A DNA stretch of 24,182 nucleotides from a virus: positions 1 to 24,182 of the IMG/VR virus record IMGVR_UViG_3300009593_000120; one strand, given 5' to 3'. Of the stretch, positions 1 to 20,976 are shown piece by piece (the first letter of the stretch is position 1; each line of letters opens with the position of its first letter). Under the pieces are notes generated by a model, which saw nothing but the letters and a program-made list of their open reading frames with translations, ran no database searches and was not told the DNA's origin. The position numbers and the translations under genes were made by a program.

Positions 1-447
1 ACTCATGTTTGCTTTATCGCCAAACATTTCGTCTGCTTTTTTGTCACCTGCTGATCCCATTTCAATAGTTTGCAACATATTTTGATATTCTGATTTTGTA
101 TTCATTTGTGCTTGATATTCTTCTTCAGGTGCGTTAGGATGTTTAACCATAATCATCGCCGGAGACATTCTCATATAGTCTGCTAGATACTCTTTGATTT
201 CTCTTGGTGATGCTGGATAGTTTGTTGTTAATTCAAAAATGTGTACTTCTTGATTCTTTAACATTGGAAAATCTAAAGGATGTTCTTGTATAGGTGTTTT
301 TTTACCTGCTGATAATTTTGCTACTTCGTATTTTGCTAAAGCCTGTTCCATACGAGAACCAAAGTCGTCTGCTATATCGCCTGCAACTTTAATTCTGTAC
401 TCGTATTGCTTCGTTGATTCTGTTAGATATTGTCCGAATGTGCTCAT
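1..447 (-). CDS. Conserved marine T4-like phage protein, 3' end outside window
   Basis: The reading frame starts at the ATG at 447 and is still open at base 1, giving the first 149 residues. The product begins MSTFGQYLTESTKQYEYRIK and is charged and soluble, with no signal peptide or membrane segment. Its early residues resemble small proteins found near capsid and scaffold genes in marine phages, so a prohead-core (gp68-like) role is possible, but I cannot establish it. A late-type box, GCTAAATA, ends 7 bases before the ATG and overlaps the stop codon of gp16. No Shine-Dalgarno is seen, so the transcript may be leaderless. It is the last gene of the leftward gp4-gp16 group visible here. The frame is clearly real; the function is uncertain. 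Confidence 0.7.
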   Translation of the reverse strand, partial: MSTFGQYLTESTKQYEYRIKVAGDIADDFGSRMEQALAKYEVAKLSAGKKTPIQEHPLDFPMLKNQEVHIFELTTNYPASPREIKEYLADYMRMSPAMIMVKHPNAPEEEYQAQMNTKSEYQNMLQTIEMGSAGDKKADEMFGDKANMS

Positions 448-454
448 AATATAA

Positions 455-462
455 TATTTAGC
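455..462 (-). promoter_or_regulatory. Late-type promoter box GCTAAATA
   Basis: GCTAAATA on the minus strand lies across the stop codon of gp16 and 7 bases before the next ATG. It matches the NNTAAATA pattern seen before many other genes here. T4 late promoters (TATAAATA) act as the -10 region, so the start site would fall at or next to the ATG. Confidence 0.6.
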
Positions 463-985
463 CTTTTTTCAATAGTTTCTTCATTAATTCGTTACGGTCA
501 GATATGATCATACCCTCCGATTCTACAGGTTCCGGCCCTGTATCACCGTCTTTGTCCAGTTTTGCTTTCTTCAGTTGTAATTCAACCATTTTCAGTTTCT
601 TATCTATCTTGCTAGATTTAGCATCAATGGCATTACGTAACATAGTACTTGCTACTTCAAATATACGTCCTGAATAACGAGAGTCAACATTCATTCCTAA
701 GTCCATTAAATTCTTATACGAATCTTCTGCTTCTCCGGCCAACTTATCTAATTCTAAATCAGATAGTTCTCCTAGTCCTTTTACTGCTGGCAATGACGAA
801 GAAATCTTATCAAATTCTTTATAAGTTTTTTCAAGTGCAGATGCAGTTTGAGGATCTACATTTTTAGGTGCAGAATGTGAAGTTCCGTTATTTTTAGACT
901 CTTTAACTTTTTCTTTTTCATCAACTTTTGCAAATGCTTCTTTAACATTTGGTAAATTGAGTATGTCTTCTAATTTCTTTGTCAT
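458..985 (-). CDS. gp16: Terminase small subunit, gp16-like
   Basis: 175 residues, close to T4 gp16 (164). The small terminase forms a ring that recognises concatemeric DNA and regulates the large subunit gp17 during head filling. The N-terminal half is charged and low in complexity. A helical core follows at about residues 80-145, with the motif SRYSGRIFEVASTMLRNA and then a lysine-rich helix IDKKLKMVELQLKKAK, the pattern of gp16 oligomerisation helices in marine T4-like phages. It lies 5 bases after gp4. A late-type box CGTAAATA ends 6 bases before the ATG and there is no Shine-Dalgarno. gp17, its normal partner and T4 neighbour, does not follow directly; another small gene does. Assignment rests on remembered family pattern, not an alignment. 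Confidence 0.78.
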   Translation of the reverse strand: MTKKLEDILNLPNVKEAFAKVDEKEKVKESKNNGTSHSAPKNVDPQTASALEKTYKEFDKISSSLPAVKGLGELSDLELDKLAGEAEDSYKNLMDLGMNVDSRYSGRIFEVASTMLRNAIDAKSSKIDKKLKMVELQLKKAKLDKDGDTGPEPVESEGMIISDRNELMKKLLKKG

Positions 986-990
986 TGCAA

Positions 991-1431
991 TTATTTACGA
1001 TTACCATTGTGGAATAATTGTTCTTCTGAAACCACTCTAAACGTAACTTTGTTCTGTTTAGCATAGGCGTTAGCGGCTTCCCACTTTGCAGTATTCACTA
1101 CTACTTGCATCTGTTTTCCTCTACTTTTACCTGCTTTTTCCATTGATGATTGTGCCGCGGGTTTTACTTCGATTATTTCTGCGTGTTTACGTCCGTTTTT
1201 GTCTATGTAAACAATAAAAAAATCCGGTACATAAATTGTATACTTTCCAGATATAGGATGTCTGTAAGGAATTTTTATCGATTCACTTGCCCACTTTGCC
1301 ACGTTAGGATGTTCGTCACATAATCTCATAAATGCTTGTTCCCACCCACTTCTATAGGTAGGTGTTTTAATTCCAATATATTTTTCTGGATTTTTGAGGC
1401 TATACTTTCCTCTTGCAAATCTCATAGCCAT
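991..1431 (-). CDS. gp4: Head completion protein gp4, PD-(D/E)XK nuclease-like
   Basis: 146 residues, close to T4 gp4 (150). gp4 acts on filled heads before tail joining and is thought to trim packaged DNA ends. The protein shows the nuclease-type residues in order: E31 in WEQAFMRLCD, D70 in VPDFFIVY, and E88-V-K90 in EIIEVKP, a PD-(D/E)XK arrangement. Conserved family text such as ASESIKIPYRHP at residues 48-59 supports it. The start at 1431 gives MAMRFARGKYS; M3 is a possible alternative. A TAGGAT sequence upstream can serve as ribosome site. It sits 4 bases after the 125-residue gene and 5 bases before gp16, so the three are probably co-expressed. Placing gp4 beside gp16 joins two steps of packaging and head closure. 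Confidence 0.85.
   Translation of the reverse strand: MAMRFARGKYSLKNPEKYIGIKTPTYRSGWEQAFMRLCDEHPNVAKWASESIKIPYRHPISGKYTIYVPDFFIVYIDKNGRKHAEIIEVKPAAQSSMEKAGKSRGKQMQVVVNTAKWEAANAYAKQNKVTFRVVSEEQLFHNGNRK
992..999 (-). promoter_or_regulatory. Late-type promoter box CGTAAATA
   Basis: CGTAAATA on the minus strand overlaps the last codons of gp4 and ends 6 bases before the gp16 ATG. The spacing fits the short-leader class seen elsewhere here, but the bases also encode the end of gp4, so chance is possible. Confidence 0.45.
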
Positions 1432-1435
1432 GACG

Positions 1436-1813
1436 CTATCCTACTATATTTCTAGATACAGAAGTTTTTGTTTTTTTAGTTTGTCTTGTTCCTAAACGAC
1501 TAGATTTATATCTAGTAGAATTTAAAATCATTTGTGTTACTTCGGATAATTCAACTGGGTTTGCATTTCCTAATTTTTCAATAACTTGTTGCGGATTTAC
1601 TTCATCAATCTTTGCTTGTCTTAAAATAATGTATGATAACTGTTCTGCTGAAGCACGTTCAAAACCTCTTTTAACAAAAAAAGCAATCGCTGTATCATAA
1701 TCGCCAACGTTAAATTCAAAAGCACCTTCGTCTTCATGCGTTAATGTTTTCATAGTTTGTTTTAGTTTGTCTTCATCTGCAGACGGTAAATTTGAATAAA
1801 AATTATTTGCCAT
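1436..1813 (-). CDS. Conserved T4-like virion-type protein, function unknown
   Basis: 125 residues. Its ATG overlaps the stop of the preceding 467-residue gene (TAATG), so the two are translationally coupled. Central text such as EFNVGDYDTAIAFFVKRGF and LSYIILRQAKID recalls a small protein conserved in marine T4-like phages and placed in the structural gene block. The fold looks mostly helical, with a basic, disordered C-terminus (residues about 100-125, rich in K, R, S and T). No catalytic motif or membrane segment is seen. The coupling to a tube-fold protein suggests a virion or assembly role, possibly at the tail-baseplate junction, but this is inference from context only. Confidence 0.65.
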   Translation of the reverse strand: MANNFYSNLPSADEDKLKQTMKTLTHEDEGAFEFNVGDYDTAIAFFVKRGFERASAEQLSYIILRQAKIDEVNPQQVIEKLGNANPVELSEVTQMILNSTRYKSSRLGTRQTKKTKTSVSRNIVG

Positions 1814-3216
1814 TATATACTTTGACTTTCTGTTGAGATAGATACATCAGAAGAGTTTCTATCAATTTTAATATATCCTTCGTTAACAAGTTTTGTAATG
1901 TTTGAAGTTGCTTTATTATTGTACACATTTTTTACACTATCAGATGAAGAAGCAAACTCGACATCACTTTCGGCAACTGTTAAACCTTTTCTGCTTCCAA
2001 CATCTTTGTAATACATATTTGATGCAATTTGATTTTTTATATTAGGATTATTTGAAACAATGTCAAAACTTTCACTAGGTGTTAGATATACTTCTGTGTT
2101 TAGTGTATTGTTGTGTACAACTGTATTGTCATTATTGTTTCCGTCTATTAAACCTTTTGCCGCGGCAATGGTTGTTCCTGCTAATACTGCCGTTGTTGCC
2201 GCATTACCTATTGAAAAGTCTCCAATCGGGTTAGCAATAGTTCCAGCAGATTCTCCTATTTTTCCTATTTCGTCTTTTACTATTCCGCCTAGTTCTTCTT
2301 TTAATTTTCCTTTAACATTTTTTATTTTTCTAGCATTGTTGTATGTGTTAATTCCTTTTAGAATTGTACCTAATCCAACTCTACCATTTTGAACATCACC
2401 CATCACTGAGCCTATTCCGTCGACAATACCACCAGGTCCAAAAATAGAACTAGTGCCTCCACCTAAAACAGACAACGGTGATGGTGAATGATCGTAATGT
2501 AAACTAGCAAATCCTGGTACTCCACCGCCTTTAACTAGTCCTGTGTTATATAAAACTGTTTCATAAAAAACTTGCATTGTATTTTGTAATAATCCTTGGC
2601 CATCTGCTTGGTCTAATGTGTCATGTGCAAATGATCCAACAACAGGATTTATTAAACTGAAAGATGTAAATCTTTGTTTGTGTAAAACAAAAATATCAAT
2701 ACCTCTTAAAAAAGGTTTTTTTCTTTTTGTTGCAGTATCCATACCAAACTGTGTTGTAGTAAGTTTAGCATCGTATTGTGTATCTTTATTTTGAGTACGC
2801 ATAGCAGGATTTGTAGTTATTGAATCTGCTATATGATGTTCGTAGTATGTTTTCCAGAATGCATTTACAGTATCAGCATTGTCATCGTGAAAAGTTACAT
2901 TAACAGGTTCATAACCTATTCTTGTTGCAAGATACATTTTTTTATTATATTGAATTTTTTCATCAACGTTCATGTTATATTTTGGCAAATCAATTGCCTT
3001 AACTAACATATTCAATTCTAATTTTTCGTTATTAGAAAAAGGTTTTGATACACCCGTAACTCCCCAATCACAATCAAAAACAACATGGTAAAGATATTTG
3101 TGTTTTGGTGCTAATTTAAAATTATCATCAAAATATAATCTAGATGCGTGACGGTAATCCTTCATTCCTGGAAGGCCGTCTGAGAATCCTTTTAAAAAAT
3201 TATTGATACTTGGCAT
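1813..3216 (-). CDS. Tail-tube-fold structural protein (baseplate-tube initiator/cap candidate, gp54/gp48-like)
   Basis: 467 residues. The first roughly 130 residues parallel the tail tube protein gp19 in this window: both have a YxxxV beta strand, a segment of the type V-DLP/RPDL, an aromatic pair near YN, and a final xxVTFHDD or ITLNLRDD strand (residues 104-112 here). In T4 the baseplate proteins gp48 and gp54 share the tube fold and nucleate tube growth, so such a role is plausible. Residues about 250-335 are glycine-rich, followed by a small hydrophobic stretch at 339-357 rich in A, T, G and V, and a serine-rich C-terminus. It has its own perfect late box TATAAATA 7 bases before the ATG, no Shine-Dalgarno, and a terminator just upstream, so it starts a separate transcription unit. 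Whether it is gp48, gp54 or a third tube-like protein cannot be decided. Confidence 0.65.
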   Translation of the reverse strand: MPSINNFLKGFSDGLPGMKDYRHASRLYFDDNFKLAPKHKYLYHVVFDCDWGVTGVSKPFSNNEKLELNMLVKAIDLPKYNMNVDEKIQYNKKMYLATRIGYEPVNVTFHDDNADTVNAFWKTYYEHHIADSITTNPAMRTQNKDTQYDAKLTTTQFGMDTATKRKKPFLRGIDIFVLHKQRFTSFSLINPVVGSFAHDTLDQADGQGLLQNTMQVFYETVLYNTGLVKGGGVPGFASLHYDHSPSPLSVLGGGTSSIFGPGGIVDGIGSVMGDVQNGRVGLGTILKGINTYNNARKIKNVKGKLKEELGGIVKDEIGKIGESAGTIANPIGDFSIGNAATTAVLAGTTIAAAKGLIDGNNNDNTVVHNNTLNTEVYLTPSESFDIVSNNPNIKNQIASNMYYKDVGSRKGLTVAESDVEFASSSDSVKNVYNNKATSNITKLVNEGYIKIDRNSSDVSISTESQSI

Positions 3217-3223
3217 ACACTTG

Positions 3224-3231
3224 TATTTATA
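3224..3231 (-). promoter_or_regulatory. Perfect T4 late promoter TATAAATA
   Basis: TATAAATA on the minus strand ends 7 bases before the ATG at 3216. It is identical to the T4 late consensus. The terminator at 3239-3264 lies just upstream, so this promoter restarts transcription. The predicted start site lies at or within a base or two of the ATG. Confidence 0.8.
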
Positions 3232-3238
3232 GTCACAA

Positions 3239-3264
3239 AAAAAGCGTCTATAAAGACGCTTTTT
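3239..3264 (-). terminator. Intrinsic terminator, probably bidirectional
   Basis: An 11-base-pair stem AAAAAGCGTCT / AGACGCTTTTT closes on the tetraloop ATAA. Either strand gives a GC-containing stem followed by a U tract. On the minus strand it follows the gp18-gp19-117-residue group and precedes the promoter of the next gene. Confidence 0.85.
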
Positions 3265-3308
3265 CCTTATTCGGGAGGCCGAATGTAATTTATAATGCTA
3301 CTCTAATT

Positions 3309-3662
3309 CTATGCGACCGTTATTGACGATGCCGCTACACAGTCTGAACCTCTAACATCTATGTTATTTGGTCCTACTGCTGAACCCAAGTTTCTCACTC
3401 TTTGCTGAATATCAGCCGCGTTGTGATTCTTATCCATTACTATATGAATAACACCTGAGTTGTCATTAACAACGAAGTACATTAAAGGATTTAATTCTCC
3501 AATAATTTCTTCTACTGCTTCATTAACTGCGTCGTCTTCTGCTCTTAAATCTATGTTTGAGTTGGAGTTATTTTGTACAGTTAGTTTAAAACCATTTGCA
3601 CCGTGACTGTAAAGAGTTCCTGCTGTTACTCCTAAACCAAATATTCTAGTTTGACCTGCCAT
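3309..3662 (-). CDS. Small conserved structural-type protein after tail tube, function unknown
   Basis: 117 residues. It starts 17 bases after the gp19 stop with a good ribosome site (TAGGAG), so it is co-transcribed with sheath and tube genes. The product begins MAGQTRIFGLGVTAGT and contains a VDLRAEDD-like stretch (IDLRAEDD, about residues 37-44) then ELNPLMYFVVNDNSGVIHIV, and ends in a beta-rich tail SSITVA. I recall similar small proteins next to gp19 in marine T4-like phages, always without known function. No catalytic motif, signal peptide or membrane segment is seen. Position suggests a tube- or sheath-associated virion component or assembly factor, but nothing in the sequence proves it. 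Confidence 0.65.
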   Translation of the reverse strand: MAGQTRIFGLGVTAGTLYSHGANGFKLTVQNNSNSNIDLRAEDDAVNEAVEEIIGELNPLMYFVVNDNSGVIHIVMDKNHNAADIQQRVRNLGSAVGPNNIDVRGSDCVAASSITVA

Positions 3663-3679
3663 TTTTTATACTCCTAACT

Positions 3680-4306
3680 TTATTGTCCACCACCAGTAGC
3701 AAGTGTACCAAGTGTTCTTGTTACAGCACTTCCAATTCCAGTACCTTGTGGTGTTTGTATTGCGTTGTCATATCTGATGTTCAACGTAATAGTTGCTGGA
3801 TCTGAAGTGTTATATGCTAATGTGTTGTAGTTAACTGATTCAATGTATGCACCGTATAACTCAAATGTTTCTAAAACAGTTGGTTCTGATGCACCTTGTC
3901 CACCATCAAGAACTTCTGTTCTTGCAGTAAATTTATAATCAATACCTGATGCCGCACTCGCTTGTTCAAAGAAGTCAAATTGTTTCTGAATTTGTTCACC
4001 AACAAGTTTAGATACCGCATTGTTTACATCGTCTCTTAAATTCAATGTAATTGGGTTCCAAGTATGTTTACCTGCCATGTAAACTCTTGAGTTGTACACG
4101 TCTAAAGTAATTTGGTCAAAAGATAAATCTGGTCTTGTAACATCAACAACCTGTTTTGTTAGTTCGGATCTAGGTGTTGATACTCCAAAGTTTTCCAAAA
4201 TAACTCTAAAACGATACTGTAATTTCGGCATTAACAGACCTTGTGACTGAGCACTTTGGTCGTTTGCTAAAGGTACTGTAAATTTTGATAATGTTGATAT
4301 TGACAT
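3680..4306 (-). CDS. gp19: Tail tube protein gp19
   Basis: 208 residues, longer than T4 gp19 (163) but usual for marine relatives. gp19 hexamers stack to form the inner tube through which DNA passes. Visible features include the first core strand YRFRVILENF (about residues 31-40), then VTRPDLSFDQITLDVYNSRV and the strand WNPITLNLRDDV, the tube fold shared with the gp48/gp54 family. A later strand set contains YNTLAYNTSDPATITLNIRY near residues 165-185. It follows gp18, as in T4, after a gap of 28 bases that carries both a late-type box (GATAAATA) and a ribosome site (GGAGAG). This internal promoter may let tube be made separately from sheath. The C-terminal 20 residues are rich in G and T and probably disordered. 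Confidence 0.92.
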   Translation of the reverse strand: MSISTLSKFTVPLANDQSAQSQGLLMPKLQYRFRVILENFGVSTPRSELTKQVVDVTRPDLSFDQITLDVYNSRVYMAGKHTWNPITLNLRDDVNNAVSKLVGEQIQKQFDFFEQASAASGIDYKFTARTEVLDGGQGASEPTVLETFELYGAYIESVNYNTLAYNTSDPATITLNIRYDNAIQTPQGTGIGSAVTRTLGTLATGGGQ

Positions 4307-4319
4307 AGTTTCTCTCTCC

Positions 4320-4327
4320 TATTTATC
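4320..4327 (-). promoter_or_regulatory. Late-type promoter box GATAAATA before gp19
   Basis: GATAAATA lies in the 28-base gp18-gp19 gap on the minus strand, 13 bases before the gp19 ATG. GGAGAG follows directly and can be the ribosome site. The leader would be very short. Confidence 0.6.
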
Positions 4328-4334
4328 TAAAAAA

Positions 4335-7300
4335 TTAAGACCCTAATTTTCCGATTTCTCCTGTGTTTTTAATTCTTAATGGTATGTAAATAAATTCAAC
4401 TGATTTAACTGGTTCAATTGCTATATCAACATACAATTCGTTTCTGTCTATTCTAGTTGCTGTGTTGTTTGTTTCATCACAAACTACTAGGAAGTCATAA
4501 ACTGCTCTTTGGCCTGCTAGTTCTAGTAAGAATGATTCAATTGCTTGTTTAATTTCGTTTCTAGTAATTGTATCATTTGGTTCAAAAATAAACGGTTTAC
4601 CAATTCTCTCTAATTGAGTTCTTAAGTAAACTGTTAATCTAGCAACATTTATTCTATCAAGTGCTGAAGTTGAACTTGCCGCAACTTTAGTTAAGTTACC
4701 GTAGTTCATAATTCCTGCGCCTGAGAAGAAAGTAATTGGATTGATTTTTGCTGTATGCATTGAATCTCTCATACCTTCTGATATTGCCATAGTTTGGAAC
4801 TCGCCTTCTTTAGCGTCAATGTATCCAACTGCTGTTGCGTTGTCAACAATACCTCTTCTTGTACCTGCTGGTGCAAACCAAGGATATGCTAAATTGTCGT
4901 TGTTCGCTAATACTCTCATCATCATATGTGATGGTGGAACAATAATTGACTTACCTGCATTTGAAGTAGTTTTTCCTGATGGGTAAAACACTCCTAAGTA
5001 TTCTGAACTTGAAACTAGACCGTCTTCGCCGTTGTCTGCCGCTCCAGCCGAGTTTGCTGACCAGTTGCTAACTTCAGTTGCTGAACCTTTTAATCTCATT
5101 GGAGTATCTCCAACTATAAAGCCAGTGTAACCTCTGTCTGCGTTTAGATTCAATAAGTTTGAAATTGCTTCTGGATATCCAGGACAAGCCATAACGTTGA
5201 ATCCTCTTTGGTCTTCTCTAATTGCTTGGTTAGTATCAATTGTTGATTTAACTTGTGATACAATAACTTTTCTTTGTGCTTTTCTTCCAAAACAACCTGA
5301 ACCGTCTGCGTTGATTGAGTTTTTAGAAACCCATCTGTCCGGGTGGTATGTAGAAACTGATTCGTTATTGTATCTAATGTTACCTAATCCAGTTGCTCCT
5401 GAACCTGGATACGCCGCAGTTGTAATATAACTGTTTTTGTATTCTTTAACATTGTAACCAGAACGTCTTGTGTTCCATAACAACATTGATTTAGGATATA
5501 ATTTAGGATTTGGTGCATCTGGATCTAAGAAAGAATCGCTTAAAAGATCTTTAATTGAACTTGCTGTACCAACACCGCCTGCTGATGTAGTATCTGTTCT
5601 GTTAGCCGCTGTATGATATCTAGCGTCTGCAAAAACAATACCGCTTTCAGTTGTTTGGTCAGTGTTATCAACTAATTCAAAAGCAGGTCCAGTTGTTGTA
5701 ACTGCTACACCTGATGTTGAATTTGTAATAGTTGCTGTTGTATTCCATCTGTAAAGTCTTGGATAGTTTTCTAAGTCTGAAGTGTCAATCCATAAGTCGT
5801 TGTCAACAAGTGCTGTACCATCTGATTGTTTAGTTGGTTCAACTGCTGAAAACTGTGGACCATTTGGATCAGTAGAAGCATAAACTTCTGCATAACCTTT
5901 CCAAGTTGTTCCGTTGTGTACCATGATGTCTGCATCTAAGTTTGTGTTGTACCATAAAGTACCTGCAACTGCTTCATTCGAAGGTTGACTTGATGCCGCT
6001 GTGTATGATAATCTTCTCCAGTTAGATCCAACAACTGCGTTGTTAGCCGATGAGTCTAATGCTTCACCAGTTGGTGCATCGTATAAGTTATCAACTAATG
6101 AAGTTGAACTTGCTGTATAAGATCCATAACTGTGTGCTGTTGCTGAACTGAAACCTGCTGTTGCAAGTGGAGTTCCTTGTGTATCAACCATTCTAAAATC
6201 ACCACCAAGTGAGTGAGTAAATTTAATAGCACCTGCGTATTGTCCTGATGCTACAATTGAAGCACTAACGTTTGTTAAGCCTGCTGAGTTAACTGCCGCT
6301 ACAAAGTCATTTTGGTCTGCGATTGTAGAGCCGTCTAAATTAGTAACTGTAACAGTTACCGCACTTGATAAAGTTTCTGAACCTTTTGTTGATTCTTGGA
6401 TTGTAAATGTTCCTTGTAATCCAGTTCTGTGTGTAAGTTTAGATTGTACTTCTGTTGTTCCACCTTCGTATCTCATGAATGTAAAATCAGCAACGTTAGG
6501 TAAACTATCGAATCCTGATTCTTCAGTAACATTGTATTGTGCATATAAAGTTCCAGCCTTAATTGCAGTTCCACCTGTTGATGGATCTAAATTTCCTAGT
6601 GCTGAACTATTATTTGCATACATTGGTGCATCAACACTTGAGTATGCCGCTGATGATGAACTGTAAAGTTTAACTTTTAAATTTGCACCTGAGTTAGGTG
6701 AACTTGATTTAAACCAAACTGAACCATTAGGTCTTGGAGTTGTGTCTGCTGATTTCCACTCTGGTCTTGATGTGTGTGGTGCTTGTAAAAACTCTGGACC
6801 TGCATATGTTCCTGCTGTTAACCCAATATCAGTTAAAAGTGTTCCTGAGTTGTTAGCAATAGTAATTTTGCCATCTAAAACAGAACCATTTGATTTTGAA
6901 GTTCCGTCTGAGAATAGTTCCAAGTAACCTGTTGTTGCATCAACTGCCGCTGTAACACCTGGTATTGACGCCGCATTAATTTGCGAAGCCATGTTAGCAA
7001 ATGTAGTTGAACTAGATGATACGTTTGAACCGTTAATTGTAATTGAATGTCCTGATGTTATCGACGCATTACTATTAGTTGAAGTAATTGTTGCGTGTGA
7101 TGTTTGCCATGTAGTAGATCCAACTTGTCTCCAAGTTCCGCTACTGTTTTTGTAGTAGATCTTGTTTGAATTGTGTGTTGTATTAACTGCATAGTCACCA
7201 ATTGTTCCAATATGAGGTTTTGGTGCTCCAGTTGCCACATCGCCTACTAGGTCAGTAAGTTTTGTAATCAACATTGGAGTTACTGTTGTAAATTTTTGGT

Positions 7301-7760
7301 TAGTAGATGACCACTCAAATATACCAAAAGAAGATGATGCAAGGTCGAACCAATAAGTTCCATCTGTTGGTTTTGAAGTTGGTGCTGAAGAACTTCCCAA
7401 TAAATCGTTTAGATCTATGTTTGCTCTTAATACATATGCTCTGTTGGCAATTCCTAAGAATGAGTATGCCGCTTGTAAACCGTACTCATTTAGTTCGTAA
7501 CCATTTAGTGAATTTCCTGATGCATCTGTGTAGAATTTTGGATCTCCAAAAGTCTCTGTTAATTCTCTTTGTGAAGTAATTAGATATACGTTACTTGCGT
7601 TTGCTGTTTGTGTTCCACCTGCTGTTCCGCTTCCTGAACCTGCTGTTTTATCCTGTGCTGATGCAACTATGAATAAAGGTGTAGTACCAGCATCTGCGGG
7701 TACGTAAAAACTCTCGTCAATGACGCTTACTGCTACTCCTGGACTAGTTAGTATTGCCAT
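4335..7760 (-). CDS. gp18: Contractile tail sheath protein gp18, with very large central insertion
   Basis: 1141 residues against 659 in T4. The N-terminus (MAILTSPGVAVSVIDESFYV, to about residue 120 with AAYSFLGIANRAYVLRAN) and the last roughly 390 residues are sheath-like. The C-terminal end carries LTVYLRTQLERIGKPFIFEP and then AIEPVKSVEFIYIPLRI, the strand-exchange region that links sheath subunits. Between them, about residues 125-750, lies S/T/G/N-rich sequence with repeated tryptophan units (GTYWFDL, GSVWFKS, GTLWYNT, NDLWIDT), which look like surface-exposed beta modules. Translation starts after a strong AAGGAG site; a late box GCTAAATA lies 58 bases upstream. gp19 follows, as in T4. 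The sheath drives contraction; the insertion probably decorates the tail exterior. Confidence 0.95.
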   Translation of the reverse strand: MAILTSPGVAVSVIDESFYVPADAGTTPLFIVASAQDKTAGSGSGTAGGTQTANASNVYLITSQRELTETFGDPKFYTDASGNSLNGYELNEYGLQAAYSFLGIANRAYVLRANIDLNDLLGSSSAPTSKPTDGTYWFDLASSSFGIFEWSSTNQKFTTVTPMLITKLTDLVGDVATGAPKPHIGTIGDYAVNTTHNSNKIYYKNSSGTWRQVGSTTWQTSHATITSTNSNASITSGHSITINGSNVSSSSTTFANMASQINAASIPGVTAAVDATTGYLELFSDGTSKSNGSVLDGKITIANNSGTLLTDIGLTAGTYAGPEFLQAPHTSRPEWKSADTTPRPNGSVWFKSSSPNSGANLKVKLYSSSSAAYSSVDAPMYANNSSALGNLDPSTGGTAIKAGTLYAQYNVTEESGFDSLPNVADFTFMRYEGGTTEVQSKLTHRTGLQGTFTIQESTKGSETLSSAVTVTVTNLDGSTIADQNDFVAAVNSAGLTNVSASIVASGQYAGAIKFTHSLGGDFRMVDTQGTPLATAGFSSATAHSYGSYTASSTSLVDNLYDAPTGEALDSSANNAVVGSNWRRLSYTAASSQPSNEAVAGTLWYNTNLDADIMVHNGTTWKGYAEVYASTDPNGPQFSAVEPTKQSDGTALVDNDLWIDTSDLENYPRLYRWNTTATITNSTSGVAVTTTGPAFELVDNTDQTTESGIVFADARYHTAANRTDTTSAGGVGTASSIKDLLSDSFLDPDAPNPKLYPKSMLLWNTRRSGYNVKEYKNSYITTAAYPGSGATGLGNIRYNNESVSTYHPDRWVSKNSINADGSGCFGRKAQRKVIVSQVKSTIDTNQAIREDQRGFNVMACPGYPEAISNLLNLNADRGYTGFIVGDTPMRLKGSATEVSNWSANSAGAADNGEDGLVSSSEYLGVFYPSGKTTSNAGKSIIVPPSHMMMRVLANNDNLAYPWFAPAGTRRGIVDNATAVGYIDAKEGEFQTMAISEGMRDSMHTAKINPITFFSGAGIMNYGNLTKVAASSTSALDRINVARLTVYLRTQLERIGKPFIFEPNDTITRNEIKQAIESFLLELAGQRAVYDFLVVCDETNNTATRIDRNELYVDIAIEPVKSVEFIYIPLRIKNTGEIGKLGS

Positions 7761-7818
7761 AATATTTTGTCTCCTTGCAATTTAACAAATTATTTGTTCT
7801 CTTTAAATATGTTAATAC

Positions 7819-7826
7819 TATTTAGC
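7819..7826 (-). promoter_or_regulatory. Late-type promoter box GCTAAATA before gp18
   Basis: GCTAAATA on the minus strand, 58 bases before the gp18 start, gives a leader of about 50 bases ending in AAGGAGACAAAAT before the ATG. It is arranged back to back with the plus-strand box at 7882-7889. Confidence 0.65.
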
Positions 7827-7881
7827 GGTCATTAAGTATTTTACGGCAAAATAAATGCAATTTTGGTACCTATATAGGTGA

Positions 7882-7889
7882 CTTAAATA
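7882..7889 (+). promoter_or_regulatory. Late-type promoter box CTTAAATA
   Basis: CTTAAATA ends 5 bases before the ATG at 7895 and no Shine-Dalgarno is present. The same octamer precedes the plus-strand gene at 20987, supporting it as a true element. Confidence 0.6.
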
Positions 7890-7894
7890 CTAGT

Positions 7895-8254
7895 ATGAAT
7901 GCTGAAATAAGGCCATTATGTGTAGAATGTAAAACGAATCCTAGAGCCATGGGATATCGCAAAGGCACTAAAATATACTGGCGTAAGCGATGTGATGCTT
8001 GTTTACGTAAAAAGAAGAATCTTAAAATAGGTGGTGTAACACCACTACAACGTTCTGGATATAGCAAAAAACGTAAGTGTGAACTGTGCGGATTTAAAGC
8101 ACGTGAGCAAATACAATTAGATGTATTGTTCATTGATGGTAACAGAAACAATACTGTAGATACTAATTTAAAAACTGTATGTGCTAATTGTCAGCGGTTA
8201 GCCAGTGTTAAGCGGCTTCGATGGTCTGTGGGCGATCTTGAAGTTGACGGATAA
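7895..8254 (+). CDS. Zinc-binding HNH-like protein with degenerate active site
   Basis: 119 residues with two four-cysteine sets: C9-x2-C12 with C33-x2-C36, and C62-x2-C65 with C96-x2-C99. Between C65 and C96 runs LDVLFIDGNRNNTVDTNLKT, which follows the HNH pattern (HHIDGNRxNNxxxNLxxLC) but has Leu-Phe where the catalytic histidines are expected. Homologues occur in marine T4-like phages near structural genes. I infer a zinc-binding fold that binds nucleic acid or protein rather than a working nuclease. It is read opposite to gp18, from its own late-type box, and its last 47 bases overlap the 3' end of the dNMP kinase gene on the other strand. The basic content (many K and R) fits nucleic-acid contact. 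Confidence 0.8.
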   Translation: MNAEIRPLCVECKTNPRAMGYRKGTKIYWRKRCDACLRKKKNLKIGGVTPLQRSGYSKKRKCELCGFKAREQIQLDVLFIDGNRNNTVDTNLKTVCANCQRLASVKRLRWSVGDLEVDG

Positions 8255-8804
8255 TATTGTCTATATTGTCGTTTAATTCATCTAGAGTACCGTTGTTATT
8301 AATAGTGTAATCAAATTCAGCACTCATCCAATCCCATTCAGATTTATGTCGTCCGTTTGCAGACATCCATTCTTGTGTAGGTAATTCTCCTCTTTTAACT
8401 AGTATAATAATACCTTTATTTTCACGTATAGTTTTAATTTCGTTCATAAATCTAGTATCCGAAATTACTGTATTGTCGCCTTTGTATCTTGCAATAACAG
8501 AATCAATCCATATTGCATCATGCATATTTTGACGCATAACTTCTGTACCAAAGTGTTGCAATACCCAACGAGGAGTTACTTCTTTTCCAAATTTTTTAGT
8601 CCAAAATTCATCAGGTTTTTCACGCCATGCTCTGCTTTCTTTAGTGTTACCTTCAAGCATTTCTCTATTCCAGTCAAAAATAGAACTAACTGCATCTTTT
8701 AAACTTTTAGCGAATGAATCTCTTTTATAATTGTGATGTGTAACCAGTCTTTCTGCGACTGTATCTTTTCCTGAACCTATTAAACCACAAATACCTATAA
8801 GCAT
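8208..8804 (-). CDS. gp1: Deoxynucleoside monophosphate kinase (T4 gp1-like)
   Basis: 198 residues (T4 gp1 is 241). The enzyme phosphorylates dNMPs to dNDPs using ATP, supplying precursors for phage DNA synthesis. The Walker A loop is G7-L-I-G-S-G-K13-D-T near the start, followed by the helix TVAERLV. The text FGTEVMRQ, then ISDTRFMNE and IIILVKRGE, matches the P-loop kinase family of gp1. The start at 8804 is fixed by a sigma70-like promoter whose -10 lies 6 bases upstream; there is no Shine-Dalgarno. It is an enzyme gene placed between structural genes, and the promoter type differs from theirs, so it is probably expressed earlier. Its 3' end overlaps the plus-strand zinc-binding gene by 47 bases. 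Confidence 0.9.
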   Translation of the reverse strand: MLIGICGLIGSGKDTVAERLVTHHNYKRDSFAKSLKDAVSSIFDWNREMLEGNTKESRAWREKPDEFWTKKFGKEVTPRWVLQHFGTEVMRQNMHDAIWIDSVIARYKGDNTVISDTRFMNEIKTIRENKGIIILVKRGELPTQEWMSANGRHKSEWDWMSAEFDYTINNNGTLDELNDNIDNIIRQLQDRPQTIEAA

Positions 8805-8810
8805 TTGTAC

Positions 8811-8839
8811 AGTATACTATCTTTTTATTCTTTTTGCAA
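8811..8839 (-). promoter_or_regulatory. Sigma70-like promoter for dNMP kinase
   Basis: On the minus strand TTGCAA (8839-8834), a 17-base spacer, and TATACT (8816-8811) form a near-consensus host-type promoter. TATACT lies 6 bases before the ATG, so the expected start is the A of the ATG and the mRNA would be leaderless. It overlaps the end of the upstream 67-residue gene. Confidence 0.75.
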
Positions 8840-9020
8840 TCTCTTCTTTTGCTTCTTGTACAGCACCTAAAACTTGTCTTCTTAGGTGTGGATCGTGTTT
8901 GGCTCTTTGAGCATCGTTTTCTAAATGCTTTACCATATGTTCTAATTCATCAGGTCTTAGATCACTGTAACGTCTGCAACGTTCTTCTCCTGAATCTACA
9001 TTTACACTTACTTTAGGCAT
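8817..9020 (-). CDS. Small charged protein, function unknown
   Basis: 67 residues, rich in charged amino acids (H, K, R, E, D), with no cysteine pair: the single cysteine is in EERCRRYSDL. From about residue 22 it is predicted to be nearly all helix, with PDELEHMVKHLENDAQ and then VLGAVQEAKEEIAKR, perhaps a helical hairpin. A box TTTAAATA ends 8 bases before the ATG and no Shine-Dalgarno is visible. It lies between gp13 and dNMP kinase and its stop codon abuts the -10 of the latter. I do not recognise the family. The frame is plausible from promoter placement and tight packing, but it is short enough that translation should be shown. Confidence 0.6.
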   Translation of the reverse strand: MPKVSVNVDSGEERCRRYSDLRPDELEHMVKHLENDAQRAKHDPHLRRQVLGAVQEAKEEIAKRIKR

Positions 9021-9028
9021 AGTGTTAG

Positions 9029-9036
9029 TATTTAAA
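9029..9036 (-). promoter_or_regulatory. Late-type promoter box TTTAAATA
   Basis: TTTAAATA on the minus strand, 8 bases before the ATG at 9020. It fits the spacing class of the other short-leader genes but has T instead of A at the second variable position, so it is among the weaker members. Confidence 0.45.
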
Positions 9037-9052
9037 AAAGTTTGATAATGAA

Positions 9053-9814
9053 TTAACCTATAACAAAACTATGTGGTGTTCCACCGTCTGCAAAATCGTT
9101 AATTTCTGCATCAAGTTTTTCCATCATTGCTAGGCCTTCTGCTTTCAAGGCGTCACCGTTAAGTGTTGTACCACCTTGTGGTCCAGCAATAGTACTAAAT
9201 TTACCTCTTGCTTCTCCTAGCATTACTTTTGAAACTGCAAGAGTGTAATCTCTAATCCATGGTTTAGAATAGATATCTTTGAATAGTGTTATGTCTGGTC
9301 TATAATTGTCAGTGTGCATTAGTATAGTTTCGTCGTCTGCTCTTGGTCTTTGTGTAATAGTAAGTTTCTTGGTTGCTACGTCCCAATGAAATTGAATAAA
9401 AGATCCAAATAATTTTCCTACTAATTCCTGGTATGATGCAAAAGCAAAATATGTAGCAAGTCCACCTGTTGCTCCTGCTCTTAACAAATACGTATTTGTG
9501 TATGCAAGGTTAAATGGTTCAAACAATGTTCCACCTTCTCCGCCTTCGGTTCTTGAACCTACTGTTCTTCTAAATAACTTTCTTACGTTAATTACTTCAT
9601 CTGGTAAAATGTAAGTATTTTGGTTTTTCTTTAGTGTTAGAAAAGCATACGATTCTTCAACAGCATTAGACGATCTTTGTCTATATCTGTTTATTGCTCT
9701 TTCTAAAGCAGTCTGATAATGTTTAGGATCTAATTCAACGTCAATCATACCTTCACCTAGGTTGTTTTTAACGTAATCAAATACCTCTTGTTGACCTGTT
9801 TGTAATTCTGACAT
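9053..9814 (-). CDS. gp13: Neck protein gp13
   Basis: 253 residues from the start chosen here (MSELQTGQQEVFDYV). gp13 with gp14 closes the filled head and forms the neck where the tail attaches. Recognisable text includes ALERAINRYRQRSSNAVEES, then TLFEPFNLAYTNTYLL, LATYFAFASYQELVGK, and ARGKFSTIAGPQGGTTLNGD near the C-terminus, which ends in FVIG; these match marine T4-like gp13. An ATG further upstream at 9865 would add 17 residues, but that stretch contains the late box GGTAAATA (9820-9827), which ends 5 bases before the 9814 ATG, so I reject it. No Shine-Dalgarno is seen. gp14 starts in the opposite direction only 44 bases away. Confidence 0.87.
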   Translation of the reverse strand: MSELQTGQQEVFDYVKNNLGEGMIDVELDPKHYQTALERAINRYRQRSSNAVEESYAFLTLKKNQNTYILPDEVINVRKLFRRTVGSRTEGGEGGTLFEPFNLAYTNTYLLRAGATGGLATYFAFASYQELVGKLFGSFIQFHWDVATKKLTITQRPRADDETILMHTDNYRPDITLFKDIYSKPWIRDYTLAVSKVMLGEARGKFSTIAGPQGGTTLNGDALKAEGLAMMEKLDAEINDFADGGTPHSFVIG

Positions 9815-9819
9815 ATACA

Positions 9820-9827
9820 TATTTACC
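9820..9827 (-). promoter_or_regulatory. Late-type promoter box GGTAAATA for gp13
   Basis: GGTAAATA on the minus strand ends 5 bases before the gp13 ATG at 9814 and sets that start. The same octamer precedes the gene at 18175. Only 15 bases separate it from the opposite-facing gp14 box. Confidence 0.65.
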
Positions 9828-9842
9828 ACATGGTTCGCTTTC

Positions 9843-9850
9843 AATAAATA
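9843..9850 (+). promoter_or_regulatory. Late-type promoter box AATAAATA for gp14
   Basis: AATAAATA on the plus strand ends 8 bases before the ATG at 9859. An ATG at 9850 overlaps the box itself and is therefore unlikely to be used. Confidence 0.65.
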
Positions 9851-9858
9851 TGTGTGAT

Positions 9859-11028
9859 ATGCCAAGATTATCTTTATTCAAACCAGAAAAAGGAAACGAT
9901 TACAAATTTCACGATCGTAACATAAATGAGATGTTTCAGGTCGGCGGAACTGATCTAAATATTCACAAGTATTTAGGCCCGTATGACCAAGGAGACCTGC
10001 AAAAAGACGGAAATGCTTCTCCAACTCAACCTAATTATGCTGGTAGCGAAATTAACGAATTAACAATTCAAGATTTATTATTTTTAGAAAACAGAGATAG
10101 AAAATATTCGCCTGATGTTTACACAATTAGGGGAATTTATAACGTACAAGATGCTGATTTTAATTTGTCTCAATTTGGAATGTTTTTGCAAAATGATACA
10201 TTATTTTTAACAGTTCATTTAAATGATACAGTTGAAAGATTAGGTAGAAAACCAATGAGTGGTGATGTTATAGAATTCCCTCATATGAAAGACGATTTTT
10301 CTTTAGATAAAAATATACCAATTGCATTAAAAAGATTTTATGTTGTAGAAGATGTAAACAGAGCGGCAGAAGGATTTAGTCAAACTTGGTGGCCACATCT
10401 ATTAAGATTAAAAATGAAAACGTTAGTAGATTCACAAGAATTTAAAGATATATTAGGTGATGCAACAGAAACTGGATCTCTTGCAAGTTATATGAGTTCG
10501 TTTAACAAAGAAAAAGAAATAAACGATGCAATAGTAAATCAAGCAGAAACAGATGCACCTAAATCAGGATTTAATTATAAGCAATATTATGTAACTCCTA
10601 TAGATGAAAAAGGTAATGTGAGATTAGATAATGTTAATAATAAAACAGATAGAGTATCTAATGACAAACCTATTAATTCAACAATAGATACACCGGCAAG
10701 TTCGTCTTATGGATTTTATTATGACGGCGATGGCCTTGCACCAAACGGTTATCCAACAGGTTTTGGTACTTCGTTTCCAACAGTTAATAGAAACAAAGGT
10801 GATTATTTCTTAAGAACAGACTTTTTACCTAATAGATTATTCCGTTATGACGGTGCAAGATGGATTAAAGTAGAAGATTCTATTAGATTAACAACAACAA
10901 ATAACGATACAAGAAAGAACTTTAAAACACAGTTTACTAATACATCAGGAACAAAAACTATTAATGGTTTAACTGTTGAACAAAGACAGTCATTATCAGA
11001 TGCATTAAAACCAAAGGCTGACAATTAA
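9859..11028 (+). CDS. gp14: Neck protein gp14
   Basis: 389 residues from the chosen start MPRLSLFKPEKGNDYKFHDR. gp14 binds gp13 at the portal side of the head to make the tail-attachment site. The N-terminal half has the family signatures ITELYQVGGT-like text (INEMFQVGGTDLNIHKY), QDLLFLENRDRKYSPDVY, NVQDADFNLSQFGMFL and MSGDVIEFPHM, all typical of marine T4-like gp14. A C-terminal beta module at about 10798-10878 reads GDYFLRTDFLPNRLFRYDG and then ARWIKVED, similar to modules in sheath and stabiliser proteins. It is longer than T4 gp14 (256). The stop overlaps the gp15 start (TAATG). Unlike T4, gp13 lies on the opposite strand. Confidence 0.87.
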   Translation: MPRLSLFKPEKGNDYKFHDRNINEMFQVGGTDLNIHKYLGPYDQGDLQKDGNASPTQPNYAGSEINELTIQDLLFLENRDRKYSPDVYTIRGIYNVQDADFNLSQFGMFLQNDTLFLTVHLNDTVERLGRKPMSGDVIEFPHMKDDFSLDKNIPIALKRFYVVEDVNRAAEGFSQTWWPHLLRLKMKTLVDSQEFKDILGDATETGSLASYMSSFNKEKEINDAIVNQAETDAPKSGFNYKQYYVTPIDEKGNVRLDNVNNKTDRVSNDKPINSTIDTPASSSYGFYYDGDGLAPNGYPTGFGTSFPTVNRNKGDYFLRTDFLPNRLFRYDGARWIKVEDSIRLTTTNNDTRKNFKTQFTNTSGTKTINGLTVEQRQSLSDALKPKADN

Positions 11029-12487: not shown

Positions 12488-12496
12488 TGCTATAAT
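12488..12496 (+). promoter_or_regulatory. Extended -10 promoter for Nudix gene
   Basis: TGC-TATAAT (TATAAT at 12491-12496) is a consensus -10 with an extended -10 TG. The -35 is weak (TAGACT at a 17-base spacing). It lies 6 bases before the ATG, so the transcript should start at the ATG. Confidence 0.7.
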
Positions 12497-12502
12497 ACAA
12501 GT

Positions 12503-12934
12503 ATGTCTCCAACTAATATAATATGTTCAGGTGCATTGTTTTATTCAACAAGCACAAGAAGGTTTTTGTTCTTACAAAGAACAGATGACAAAACAAAAGG
12601 ACTCTGGGGATTATGTGGTGGAATGGCAAAGTTTCATGAATCTGCATTCGAAGGTTTACAAAGAGAAATTGCAGAAGAAGTTGGTAGTATACCGCCTATC
12701 AAAAAAACTATTCCGTTAGAATTGTTTACTTCAAACGATCAAAAATTTACTTTTAACACTTACTTAATTGCAGTTGAAAACGAATTTATTCCTAAATTAA
12801 ACAAAGAGCATTCAGGTTATTGTTGGACTTCGTTTGAATGTTGGCCTAAAAATTTACACGCAGGATTGAAAAATACTCTTAACAATAAAAGTATAAAAGG
12901 TAAGTTACAAACTATATTAGATTTAATAGTCTAA
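12503..12934 (+). CDS. Nudix hydrolase
   Basis: 143 residues. The complete Nudix box spans residues 40-62: G40-x5-E46-x7-R54-E55-I56-x-E58-E59-x-G61, read in GGMAKFHE and then QREIAEEVGS. These glutamates bind the metal that cleaves nucleoside-diphosphate-linked substrates. The substrate cannot be told from sequence: oxidised dNTPs, ADP-ribose, ppGpp-like molecules or capped RNA 5' ends are all open. The N-terminal strand NIICSGALFYSTSTRRFLFL is typical of the fold. It has its own sigma70-like promoter and no Shine-Dalgarno. It follows gp15 by 32 bases and its stop overlaps by 3 bases the stop of the convergent fibre gene at 12931. Marine T4-like phages often carry such a gene. Confidence 0.93.
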   Translation: MSPTNIICSGALFYSTSTRRFLFLQRTDDKTKGLWGLCGGMAKFHESAFEGLQREIAEEVGSIPPIKKTIPLELFTSNDQKFTFNTYLIAVENEFIPKLNKEHSGYCWTSFECWPKNLHAGLKNTLNNKSIKGKLQTILDLIV

Positions 12935-13566
12935 CCAGCACTAATTTTTACAGTACCGTTATCGTTCCAAAGTTGTCCAGCATTGTTAGGATCACTTGTA
13001 GGCAAGTCAGACGCCATTACTTTACCTGATTCGTTAACCATTACTTCACCGCTTTGATCAGGAAATACAATATCTCTTCTTGCAGTAGCATTGGTGCCAT
13101 ATAATCTTGTTTTTTTATATCCTGTTGTTTGTAACATTAAAGGTTTGTCTACGTGAACAAGTACTCCGTCGTTCTGTACAACCAACATTGACTTATGTTG
13201 TCCGCCGACTCTTATTGTAAATGTTAAGTTAGAATCGTCAGTGCCTTTTTTTGCGTCTTTAATTACTGAATGAATACTTGCATATCTGATTTGTTCACCG
13301 TTATCATTCATGCCTTTCCATTGTATTTTTCCTAGTTGATCACCTTGTGCTGGACTAGTAGAATCTCTATGAAACGTCATATGAGGACCGGCGGCAGAAG
13401 TATCTGCTTTAGTGATCATCAATATATTATTTTCACTAGTAGATGTATTTTTTACAACAAGTTTTTGTAATACTTGTTTTTTGTGAAAATCACTATCTTT
13501 ATCCGTTACTGGTTTATTATCAGAATCGGAATCTTCTACCTTCATTAAACTATAATACTTTGGCAT
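12931..13566 (-). CDS. Small fibre-type structural protein sharing a module with its upstream neighbour
   Basis: 211 residues. Residues about 40-131 (NTSTSENNILMITK, then AGPHMTFHRDSTSPAQGDQ and LGKIQWKGMNDN) align by eye with residues about 952-1050 of the 1147-residue protein immediately upstream (NTSTSDALLVTTTE, AGPVISLKRNSSSPADAD, LGQIKFKGENDN). The C-terminus ends LPTSDPNNAGQLWNDNG and TVKISAG, a tail-end common in marine phage fibre proteins. The start overlaps the upstream stop (TAATG) and has a strong AAGGAGG site, so it is coupled to the 1147-residue gene. I infer a partner or terminal piece of the same fibre. No enzyme motif is seen. It ends convergently with the Nudix gene. Confidence 0.75.
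   Translation of the reverse strand: MPKYYSLMKVEDSDSDNKPVTDKDSDFHKKQVLQKLVVKNTSTSENNILMITKADTSAAGPHMTFHRDSTSPAQGDQLGKIQWKGMNDNGEQIRYASIHSVIKDAKKGTDDSNLTFTIRVGGQHKSMLVVQNDGVLVHVDKPLMLQTTGYKKTRLYGTNATARRDIVFPDQSGEVMVNESGKVMASDLPTSDPNNAGQLWNDNGTVKISAG
13174..13449 (-). repeat. Module shared with the large fibre gene (copy 2)
   Basis: Encodes residues about 40-131 of the 211-residue protein and matches the region at 13860-14156 in protein sequence. The DNA has diverged, so the duplication is not recent. Confidence 0.75.
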
Positions 13567-17092: not shown

Positions 17093-17100
17093 TATTTATA
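17093..17100 (-). promoter_or_regulatory. Perfect T4 late promoter TATAAATA for large fibre gene
   Basis: TATAAATA on the minus strand, 84 bases before the ATG at 17009, directly after the terminator at 17112-17137. The leader ends with AGAAGGAGCCAAAT before the ATG. Confidence 0.8.
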
Positions 17101-17161: not shown

Positions 17162-18175
17162 TTAGTTGTTTGTTCTAACTACTGCGTTAACTAAACCAAT
17201 TCCTGCATCAGTTTTAGCCTCTAGTGCTCTACCGATAACGTGGAATGGAGTGATATCTTCTTCTGAAGTTACTGCTCTTGCAGTACCTTTAACAGATGAA
17301 CTTACTAATCTGTCACCTTTTGCTACTGAACCTGTAACTCTCACTGGAGTTCTACCTGTCATTGCAACAAATGGGTGTGATTCGCTGTTACCTGCTTCTG
17401 CATTCATCATAAATGCTGGCTGAGTAGAAATAACACCAAATACTTGGTTGTTCATATCACCTTGTGATTCAGTAATTTCTGCTGATCCACCAAGTGTTAC
17501 TACTGCGCCTTCTGACATAGGAGCGTCTGCTTCAAAACGCTCCGCCACGTCCGCGTAAGCCGCCGACGTTGCTCTTGCGTGTACAACATTTGCTCTAATG
17601 TCAACTAAATCTTTGTTAGATAAGTCGTCATCAGATCTATATGCTGTCCAGGCACCACTTGCGTTTCCGTAAACAGTTGTTCCGTCGTCTGCGAATGTTT
17701 CATCCCAAACCCAGAAAAGATCTTCTTCAGTTGCTGATGATGTTGCACCTCTGTTGGCTTTTAAGCCAGAGAATGATGGCATCCCAGAAGCCGCTGATAC
17801 GTTTCTGTTAACTTCTATCATGTTGTCTTCAACTGATAAAGTTGCAGTGTTTAGTTCTGTTCTTGTACCGTCAACTGTTAAGTTACCAGTAATTCTTACT
17901 AGTCCTGCAGTTGCGATAAGTTGGTCTGTTCCACCGATATCTAATGATACTGATGAACCACCTACTGTTACGTTGTTTGATCCAGATACTAGGCTAGTTT
18001 TAGCAGTTAACTGATCATCAACATACTTCTTATTGGCCAATTTTGCGTCTGCGTTTGGCGCCGTTGTATTATCTAGCGTCAAAGATGCCACACCTGTTAA
18101 TGCACCTGAAGATGCACTTATAGATACGTCACCGCAATCAAGACCATTGTGTACTCTAAAGTTTCTTGCTGTCAT
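17162..18175 (-). CDS. Fibre-type structural protein with YADVAERFEAD C-terminal domain
   Basis: 337 residues. The N-terminal part has NTTAPNADAKLANKKYVDD (about 36-54), a stretch common in phage fibre proteins. Next comes NLTVDGTRTELNTATLSVED (98-117), matching NLTVNGTTTTIDSATLTVED in the gene at 20889. A C-terminal domain starts at YADVAERFEADAPMSEG (207-223) and continues with FGVISTQPAFMMN, VAMTGRTPVRVTG and KGDRLV, ending VIGRALEAKTDAG and VNAVVRTNN. Such YAD-x-AE-x-xEAD domains occur at the ends of many phage tail proteins and resemble intramolecular chaperone or autoproteolytic (Peptidase_G2-type) ends; I cannot see the catalytic residues with certainty. It has a late box GGTAAATA, an 85-base leader, a GGGAG site, and terminators on both sides, so it is a single-gene unit. 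Confidence 0.75.
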   Translation of the reverse strand: MTARNFRVHNGLDCGDVSISASSGALTGVASLTLDNTTAPNADAKLANKKYVDDQLTAKTSLVSGSNNVTVGGSSVSLDIGGTDQLIATAGLVRITGNLTVDGTRTELNTATLSVEDNMIEVNRNVSAASGMPSFSGLKANRGATSSATEEDLFWVWDETFADDGTTVYGNASGAWTAYRSDDDLSNKDLVDIRANVVHARATSAAYADVAERFEADAPMSEGAVVTLGGSAEITESQGDMNNQVFGVISTQPAFMMNAEAGNSESHPFVAMTGRTPVRVTGSVAKGDRLVSSSVKGTARAVTSEEDITPFHVIGRALEAKTDAGIGLVNAVVRTNN

Positions 18176-18260: not shown

Positions 18261-18268
18261 TATTTACC
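18261..18268 (-). promoter_or_regulatory. Late-type promoter box GGTAAATA
   Basis: GGTAAATA on the minus strand, 85 bases before the ATG at 18175 and downstream of the terminator at 18313-18339. The same octamer precedes gp13. Confidence 0.6.
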
Positions 18269-20939: not shown

Positions 20940-20947
20940 TATTTATT
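20940..20947 (-). promoter_or_regulatory. Late-type promoter box AATAAATA
   Basis: AATAAATA on the minus strand, 50 bases before the ATG at 20889, giving a leader with the two palindromes and AAGGAG. It faces away from the plus-strand box at 20969-20976. Confidence 0.6.
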
Positions 20948-20968: not shown

Positions 20969-20976
20969 CTTAAATA
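20969..20976 (+). promoter_or_regulatory. Late-type promoter box CTTAAATA
   Basis: CTTAAATA ends 10 bases before the ATG at 20987; a weak TAAGG lies in the gap. Same octamer as at 7882-7889. Confidence 0.6.

Follow-up and report, generated by a model that had tools for sequence, protein, structure and literature searches.

Late promoter boxes at the start codon and predicted leaderless mRNAs in a family of large, uncultured relatives of phage T4

In T4, the textbook case of late transcription, late genes have leaders. A different arrangement, with a late promoter box of the same kind directly at the start codon, is found in IMG/VR record IMGVR_UViG_3300009593_000120, in a stretch of 24,182 nucleotides (nt; positions 1 to 24,182 of the record) from an incomplete viral genome. 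The whole of this stretch is referred to here as the window. The GC content across the region is 30-41%, and the structural genes were matched to T4-type families (sheath, tube, head-tail adaptor gp13, gp15-like sheath stabilizer and head closure). Among cultured phages, jumbo myoviruses (the Phosso, Atu_ph07, SCTP-2, PA5oct and 121Q group) come closest, at ~30-37% protein identity, and megablast of the window against phages gave no match; close relatives are numerous in IMG/VR, where they make up a family of large phages that are related to T4 and uncultured. A tRNA search for clues to the host found none. As in T4, the hexamer TAAATA, the core of the TATAAATA box, lies upstream of late structural genes, and a gp55-like sigma factor would recognise these sites as late promoters of the T4 type. 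The explanation favored here, to which a probability of about 0.85 is assigned, is that a late promoter placed at the ATG gives rise to leaderless mRNAs, and that a box placed farther upstream gives rise to a leader with a Shine-Dalgarno (SD) site.

Two positions of the late box in the window

Genes are named below by the position of their ATG, and the spacer is the count of bases separating TAAATA from that ATG. A preliminary description of the window had listed seven genes with a box 5-8 bases before the ATG and no SD, and this was borne out in full, with an SD motif present in 0/7 of them. The features are as follows.

455..460, minus strand: late box TAAATA of gene 1-447; spacer 7 nt, ATG at 447, no SD
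1..447, minus strand: virion structural gene (phrog_14802), truncated by the window end; predicted leaderless
992..997, minus strand: late box of gene 458-985; spacer 6 nt, shares bases with the upstream neighbour's stop codon
458..985, minus strand: phrog_16202 gene (weak match, terminase small subunit); predicted leaderless
3224..3229, minus strand: late box of gene 1813-3216; spacer 7 nt
1813..3216, minus strand: tail-tube-like protein (phrog_4542, weak); predicted leaderless
7884..7889, plus strand: late box of gene 7895-8254; spacer 5 nt, +1 would fall on the A of the ATG
7895..8254, plus strand: HNH endonuclease-like gene; predicted leaderless
9029..9034, minus strand: late box of gene 8817-9020; spacer 8 nt
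8817..9020, minus strand: small gene without assigned function; predicted leaderless or with a 3-nt leader
9820..9825, minus strand: late box of gene 9053-9814; spacer 5 nt, half of a divergent pair
9053..9814, minus strand: gp13-type head-tail adaptor (phrog_211); predicted leaderless
9845..9850, plus strand: late box of gene 9859-11028; spacer 8 nt, divergent partner of the 9814 box
9859..11028, plus strand: neck/virion structural protein (phrog_11591); predicted leaderless or with a 3-nt leader

A lack of box enrichment over an AT-matched background had been named beforehand as a result that would refute the idea. TAAATA was scarcer in the window than expected (19 observed vs 36 expected); nevertheless, 7 of the 22 gene starts with upstream sequence carried it at 5-8 nt, compared with a mean of 0.21 and a maximum of 3 in 20,000 dinucleotide shuffles of the upstream regions, and this placement is conserved in relatives. 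The ATGs of the divergent genes 9814 and 9859 are only 44 bp apart and no SD is found in 74 and 79 of their orthologs, respectively, so the RNA of each gene most simply begins there. Given possible readthrough elsewhere, the case is clearest for this pair and for gene 7895. Just 5' of the near box of gene 3216, a terminator-like hairpin with a T run (AAAAAGCGTCTTTATAGACGCTTTTTTT) is present at about 3234-3266 on the minus strand.

The second group claimed in the preliminary description, genes with a box 50-85 bases away and a strong purine site, was likewise recovered, and GGAG/AGGA-type SD sites were identified in all four (4/4).

7819..7824, minus strand: far late box of the tail sheath gene 4335-7760, at 58 nt; leader and SD
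17093..17098, minus strand: far late box of gene 13566-17009, at 83 nt; SD
18261..18266, minus strand: far late box of gene 17162-18175, at 85 nt; SD
20940..20945, minus strand: far late box of gene 18358-20889, at 50 nt; SD

In several orthologs of gene 17162-18175, an inverted repeat flanks the far late box (ACGCCCCAA TGG[TAAATA]CTACTG TTGGGGCGT).

The proposal that the two groups are cleanly split was largely, but not entirely, sustained. Among distinct upstream regions, the near families carry the box at 5-8 nt in 150/151 cases and an SD in 0/151, whereas the four far families carry a box at the ATG in 0/55 and an SD in 53/55; however, two window genes absent from the earlier lists do not obey the division.

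4320..4325, minus strand: late box of the tail-tube gene 3680-4306, 13 nt from the ATG, together with the SD GGAGAG
20971..20976, plus strand: late box of gene 20987-21532, 10 nt 5' of the ATG; borderline

The tail-tube orthologs retain both elements, with an SD in 19/19 and a box at 9-13 nt in 18. In the window (4306-4325, minus strand), this SD is formed by the first bases 3' of the box (TAAATAGGAGAGAGAAACTATG).

Conservation in relatives and in a 196.6-kb contig

For the assessment of conservation, 80 related loci (viral contigs) were retrieved from IMG/VR by the neck protein, and the start of each window gene's orthologs was located in them. A box 3-12 nt from the ATG was found in 10/10 orthologs of gene 447, 11/12 of 985, 16/16 of 3216, 59/59 of 7895, 16/16 of 9020, 74/74 of 9814 and 79/79 of 9859, and an SD was found in 0 orthologs of these seven genes. 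The spacer is 5-8 nt in 10/10 orthologs of gene 447, exactly 5 nt in 74/74 orthologs of gene 9814 and 6-8 nt in 79/79 orthologs of gene 9859. The far box was kept in the sheath (53/53), 17009 (12/12), 18175 (20/20) and 20889 (12/12) families, with an SD in 95/97 far-box orthologs (18/20 in the 18175 family); the sheath orthologs combine a box at 30-58 nt with an SD in all 53 of 53. An independent clustering of families yielded the identical near/far division. Of the 601 TAAATA sites in the 80 relatives, 316 are followed after 5-8 nt by an ATG that opens an open reading frame (ORF), compared with 4-96 for the same count made with permuted A/T hexamers, the higher of these values coming from hexamers that overlap the TAAATA box itself.

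The pattern was also measured at genome scale in a 196.6-kb contig, G006 (L424-L433), which was reached via the major head protein (phrog_138) of the relative L164 and shows synteny with the window over the latter's first half. Starts in G006 were taken from a simple ORF caller that takes every early ATG into consideration, and individual assignments may err; the same procedure was run on the comparison phages and the permuted motifs. Genes with TAAATA before their ATG number 9, 9, 7 and 4 at spacers of 5, 6, 7 and 8 nt, respectively, and about 1 at each other distance, so that 29 of 202 genes have a near box, compared with a mean of 1.8 and a maximum of 7 in shuffles. Only 1/29 of these genes has an SD, and the set includes the terminase large subunit, a spanin and a baseplate wedge protein. 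G006 also encodes a gp55-type late sigma factor (phrog_12791, E=1e-84; phrog_234, 1.7e-23); no copy was seen in the window, which is short and comes from an incomplete genome.

Transcription start sites and competing explanations

In T4, the late box spans -13 to -6 (PMC1524935), which places +1 six bases after TAAATA. This spacing was calibrated at far boxes, where the sequence is free of start-codon constraint: 83% of the clade's 71 distinct far boxes, a set that includes some paralogs and close relatives, have a pyrimidine-purine step at bases 5/6 after the box. From the spacers, leaders of 2, 1, 2, 0, 3, 0 and 3 nt are predicted for genes 447, 985, 3216, 7895, 9020, 9814 and 9859, respectively; RNA of the near-box genes would thus begin at the A of the AUG or at most 3 nt earlier, and ribosomes would have to initiate on a bare 5' AUG. 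In G006, T occupies position -1 in 24/29 late near-box genes and in 13/18 genes with a sigma70-like box at the ATG, compared with 18/72 SD genes (late near-box vs SD genes, Fisher p ~1e-7), as expected if the initiator is the A of the ATG. Near boxes are followed by 255 ATG starts and 1 CTG start in the 80 loci and by 31 ATG and 2 GTG starts in G006, and leaderless initiation requires ATG or GTG (PMC4633059). When the first 38 nt were folded, 5' ends were weakly structured, with no clear difference from shuffles. The suggestion that late mRNAs start at about the ATG finds support in comparative sequence, with the likely start 6 bases after the box.

Two further genes missing from the earlier lists, 8804 and 12503, have no TAAATA and show the same geometry with a different promoter element.

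12491..12496, plus strand: sigma70-like -10 (TGnTATAAT in relatives) of the NUDIX gene 12503-12934; 6 nt from the ATG, no SD
8811..8816, minus strand: sigma70-like -10 (TATACT here, TAGTATAAT in relatives) of the dNMP kinase gene 8208-8804; 6 nt from the ATG, no SD

Their orthologs retain TATAAT or TATACT (TAGTATAAT or TGnTATAAT) 5-7 nt from the ATG, and in G006, with a looser hexamer set, 18 genes have a sigma70-like box at the ATG. The same leaderless geometry would therefore be built with a sigma70-like -10 box in some genes. Two unrelated boxes in the same position, both without an SD, argue for promoter placement that yields leaderless mRNAs and not for a special ribosome signal. The proposed pair of translation modes within one late regulon is supported, but the sigma70-type boxes indicate that the leaderless mode reaches beyond that regulon. 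A side observation in G006 is that 83 genes have neither an SD nor a recognised box, with T preceding the ATG in 51% of them; some of these may be further leaderless genes whose -10 boxes are variants.

Several points weigh against leaderless late mRNAs. The pyrimidine-purine step is weak at the far boxes of G006 itself (39%, n=18), and for 8-nt spacers the start could be either the A of the ATG (+1) or -3. The clamp gp45, which is required for T4 late transcription, was undetected in G006 with a T4/cyanophage profile, although it may be too diverged for detection. With the same profile, gp45 was likewise undetected in 121Q and PA5oct. Two further points, the conserved pairing of box and SD at the tail-tube gene and the location of 25 of the 29 near-box genes of G006 just behind another gene on the same strand, often at a distance of 4-13 nt, bear on the strongest alternative, namely that near-box genes are translated mainly from polycistronic mRNAs by the ribosomes of the upstream gene, with the box serving as an extra or weak promoter. 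The overlap of the gene 985 box with its neighbour's stop codon is in keeping with this, and same-strand neighbours may add expression from longer readthrough mRNAs. Genes 9814, 9859 and 7895, however, are divergent or isolated and have no upstream gene, yet the geometry is the same in their 74, 79 and 59 orthologs; moreover, coupling has no need of a box fixed at 5-8 nt, of T at -1 or of starts that are ATG only. At T4 spacing, the tail-tube SD would lie largely upstream of the start and would serve mainly mRNA read through from the sheath promoter. Readthrough as the main route is thus considered improbable.

Less probable still is that the box is no promoter and acts as an AU-rich ribosome or S1 standby site in place of the SD. 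The box does stand where a ribosome site would be, and starts without an SD but with A/U-rich upstream sequences are common among bacteria. Nonetheless, SD genes have the same box at 30-87 nt, followed by an initiator step at bases 5/6; a different, sigma70-like box takes the equivalent position in genes 8804 and 12503; a gp55 sigma is encoded by G006; and, overlap with the box aside, permuted A/T hexamers give no comparable peak. Chance or mis-annotated starts, suggested by the low GC content and the ease with which TAAATA overlaps stop and start codons, are refuted by the enrichment of an under-represented hexamer far beyond shuffles, the counts over distinct upstreams, ATGs backed by protein conservation over 10-80 orthologs, and the lack of the pattern in T4, 121Q and Atu_ph07, which are of similar GC.

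Leaderless translation of the near-box genes is, on this evidence, very likely; the 5' ends and a copy-number purpose are also things that we infer. The products predicted to be leaderless are those of the neck/connector, of packaging (terminase), the HNH (homing) endonuclease and others that are apparently of low copy number, and those predicted to be leadered with an SD are the tail sheath, tail tube, head protein, scaffold region and fibre-like proteins. Abundant virion parts such as the sheath and fibre-like proteins would have the same box 30-87 nt upstream and a leader with a strong SD. A leaderless ATG in E. coli gives ~10% of leadered expression (PMC4633059), and the near/far division fits a tier of expression strength, the step to copy number being one that we infer.

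Other phages and the significance of promoter distance

The system resembles that of T4, a gp55/gp33/gp45 system (PMC1524935, PMC2988020, PMC7892883), in its box, its likely start 6 bases after the box and the gp55-type sigma of its close relative G006. Unlike these phages, in which about half of the relatives' TAAATA sites are at an ATG, T4 has in its whole genome 1 ATG at 5-8 nt from a box, which is background level, and its late genes are normally leadered with an SD. The box-at-ATG count was also at background in syn9, S-PM2, 121Q, Atu_ph07 and PA5oct. A trait general to jumbo phages of this type was considered and rejected, as Atu_ph07, SCTP-2, Phosso, PA5oct and 121Q were at or near background. 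More distant relatives found via the head protein have fewer box-at-ATG genes, mostly at 5 nt.

The same geometry was found in the pelagiphages HTVC008M (NC_020484) and Mosig EXVC030M (MT647606), members of another phage family (Kyanoviridae), at 5-nt spacing only and in fewer genes; 11 and 6 genes, respectively, have TAAATA exactly 5 nt from the ATG, mostly with a pyrimidine at -1 and with SD motifs in 1 and 0. These include gp53-like and gp4-like genes. The pattern is absent from the related cyanophages syn9 and S-PM2, and no description of it in pelagiphages was found in the literature searched. P-SSM2, with 4 genes at 5 nt (three of them with A at -1), and Melnitz, with 3 genes at this spacing, offer too few cases for a claim. 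Raw pattern counts in SAR11 genomes were above a reversed-pattern control; however, the gene-level test failed to confirm this, since in the SAR11 genome G013 (400 kb) neither -10-like hexamers at 5-7 nt nor TAAATA at 5-8 nt form a peak, and the idea that the phages copy a leaderless habit of a SAR11 host is therefore unsupported.

Phage P2 late gene V and lambda cI are leaderless phage genes, and the near-box mRNAs would similarly be expected to begin at the AUG without an SD; those, however, are single genes, whereas here the mode would be common to a large conserved gene set, with leadered genes under promoters of the same type alongside. P2 late promoters are cited in PMC4633059. Mycobacterial leaderless transcripts (PMC4633059) offer a further likeness, in that they start at the initiation codon, use ATG or GTG only and make up a large share of genes, all of which is predicted here from sequence; mycobacteria differ in that the mode is cellular and host-wide, and a leaderless ATG performs there like a leadered one (PMC4633059). 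A partial literature search found no report of leaderless T4-type late genes.

Tentatively, and at somewhat short of even odds, promoter distance may be a genome-wide switch in these phages, with leaderless mRNAs the default for low-copy products under both promoter types and SD leaders reserved for abundant virion proteins, and with the pelagiphages having reached the late-promoter geometry separately. Gene callers that depend on the SD may misplace starts in such phages. If leaderless late mRNAs are made as predicted, they would account for the missing ribosome sites in the genomes of these phages, and one promoter type would give rise to leaderless and leadered mRNAs side by side, a natural test of the purpose and efficiency of leaderless initiation.

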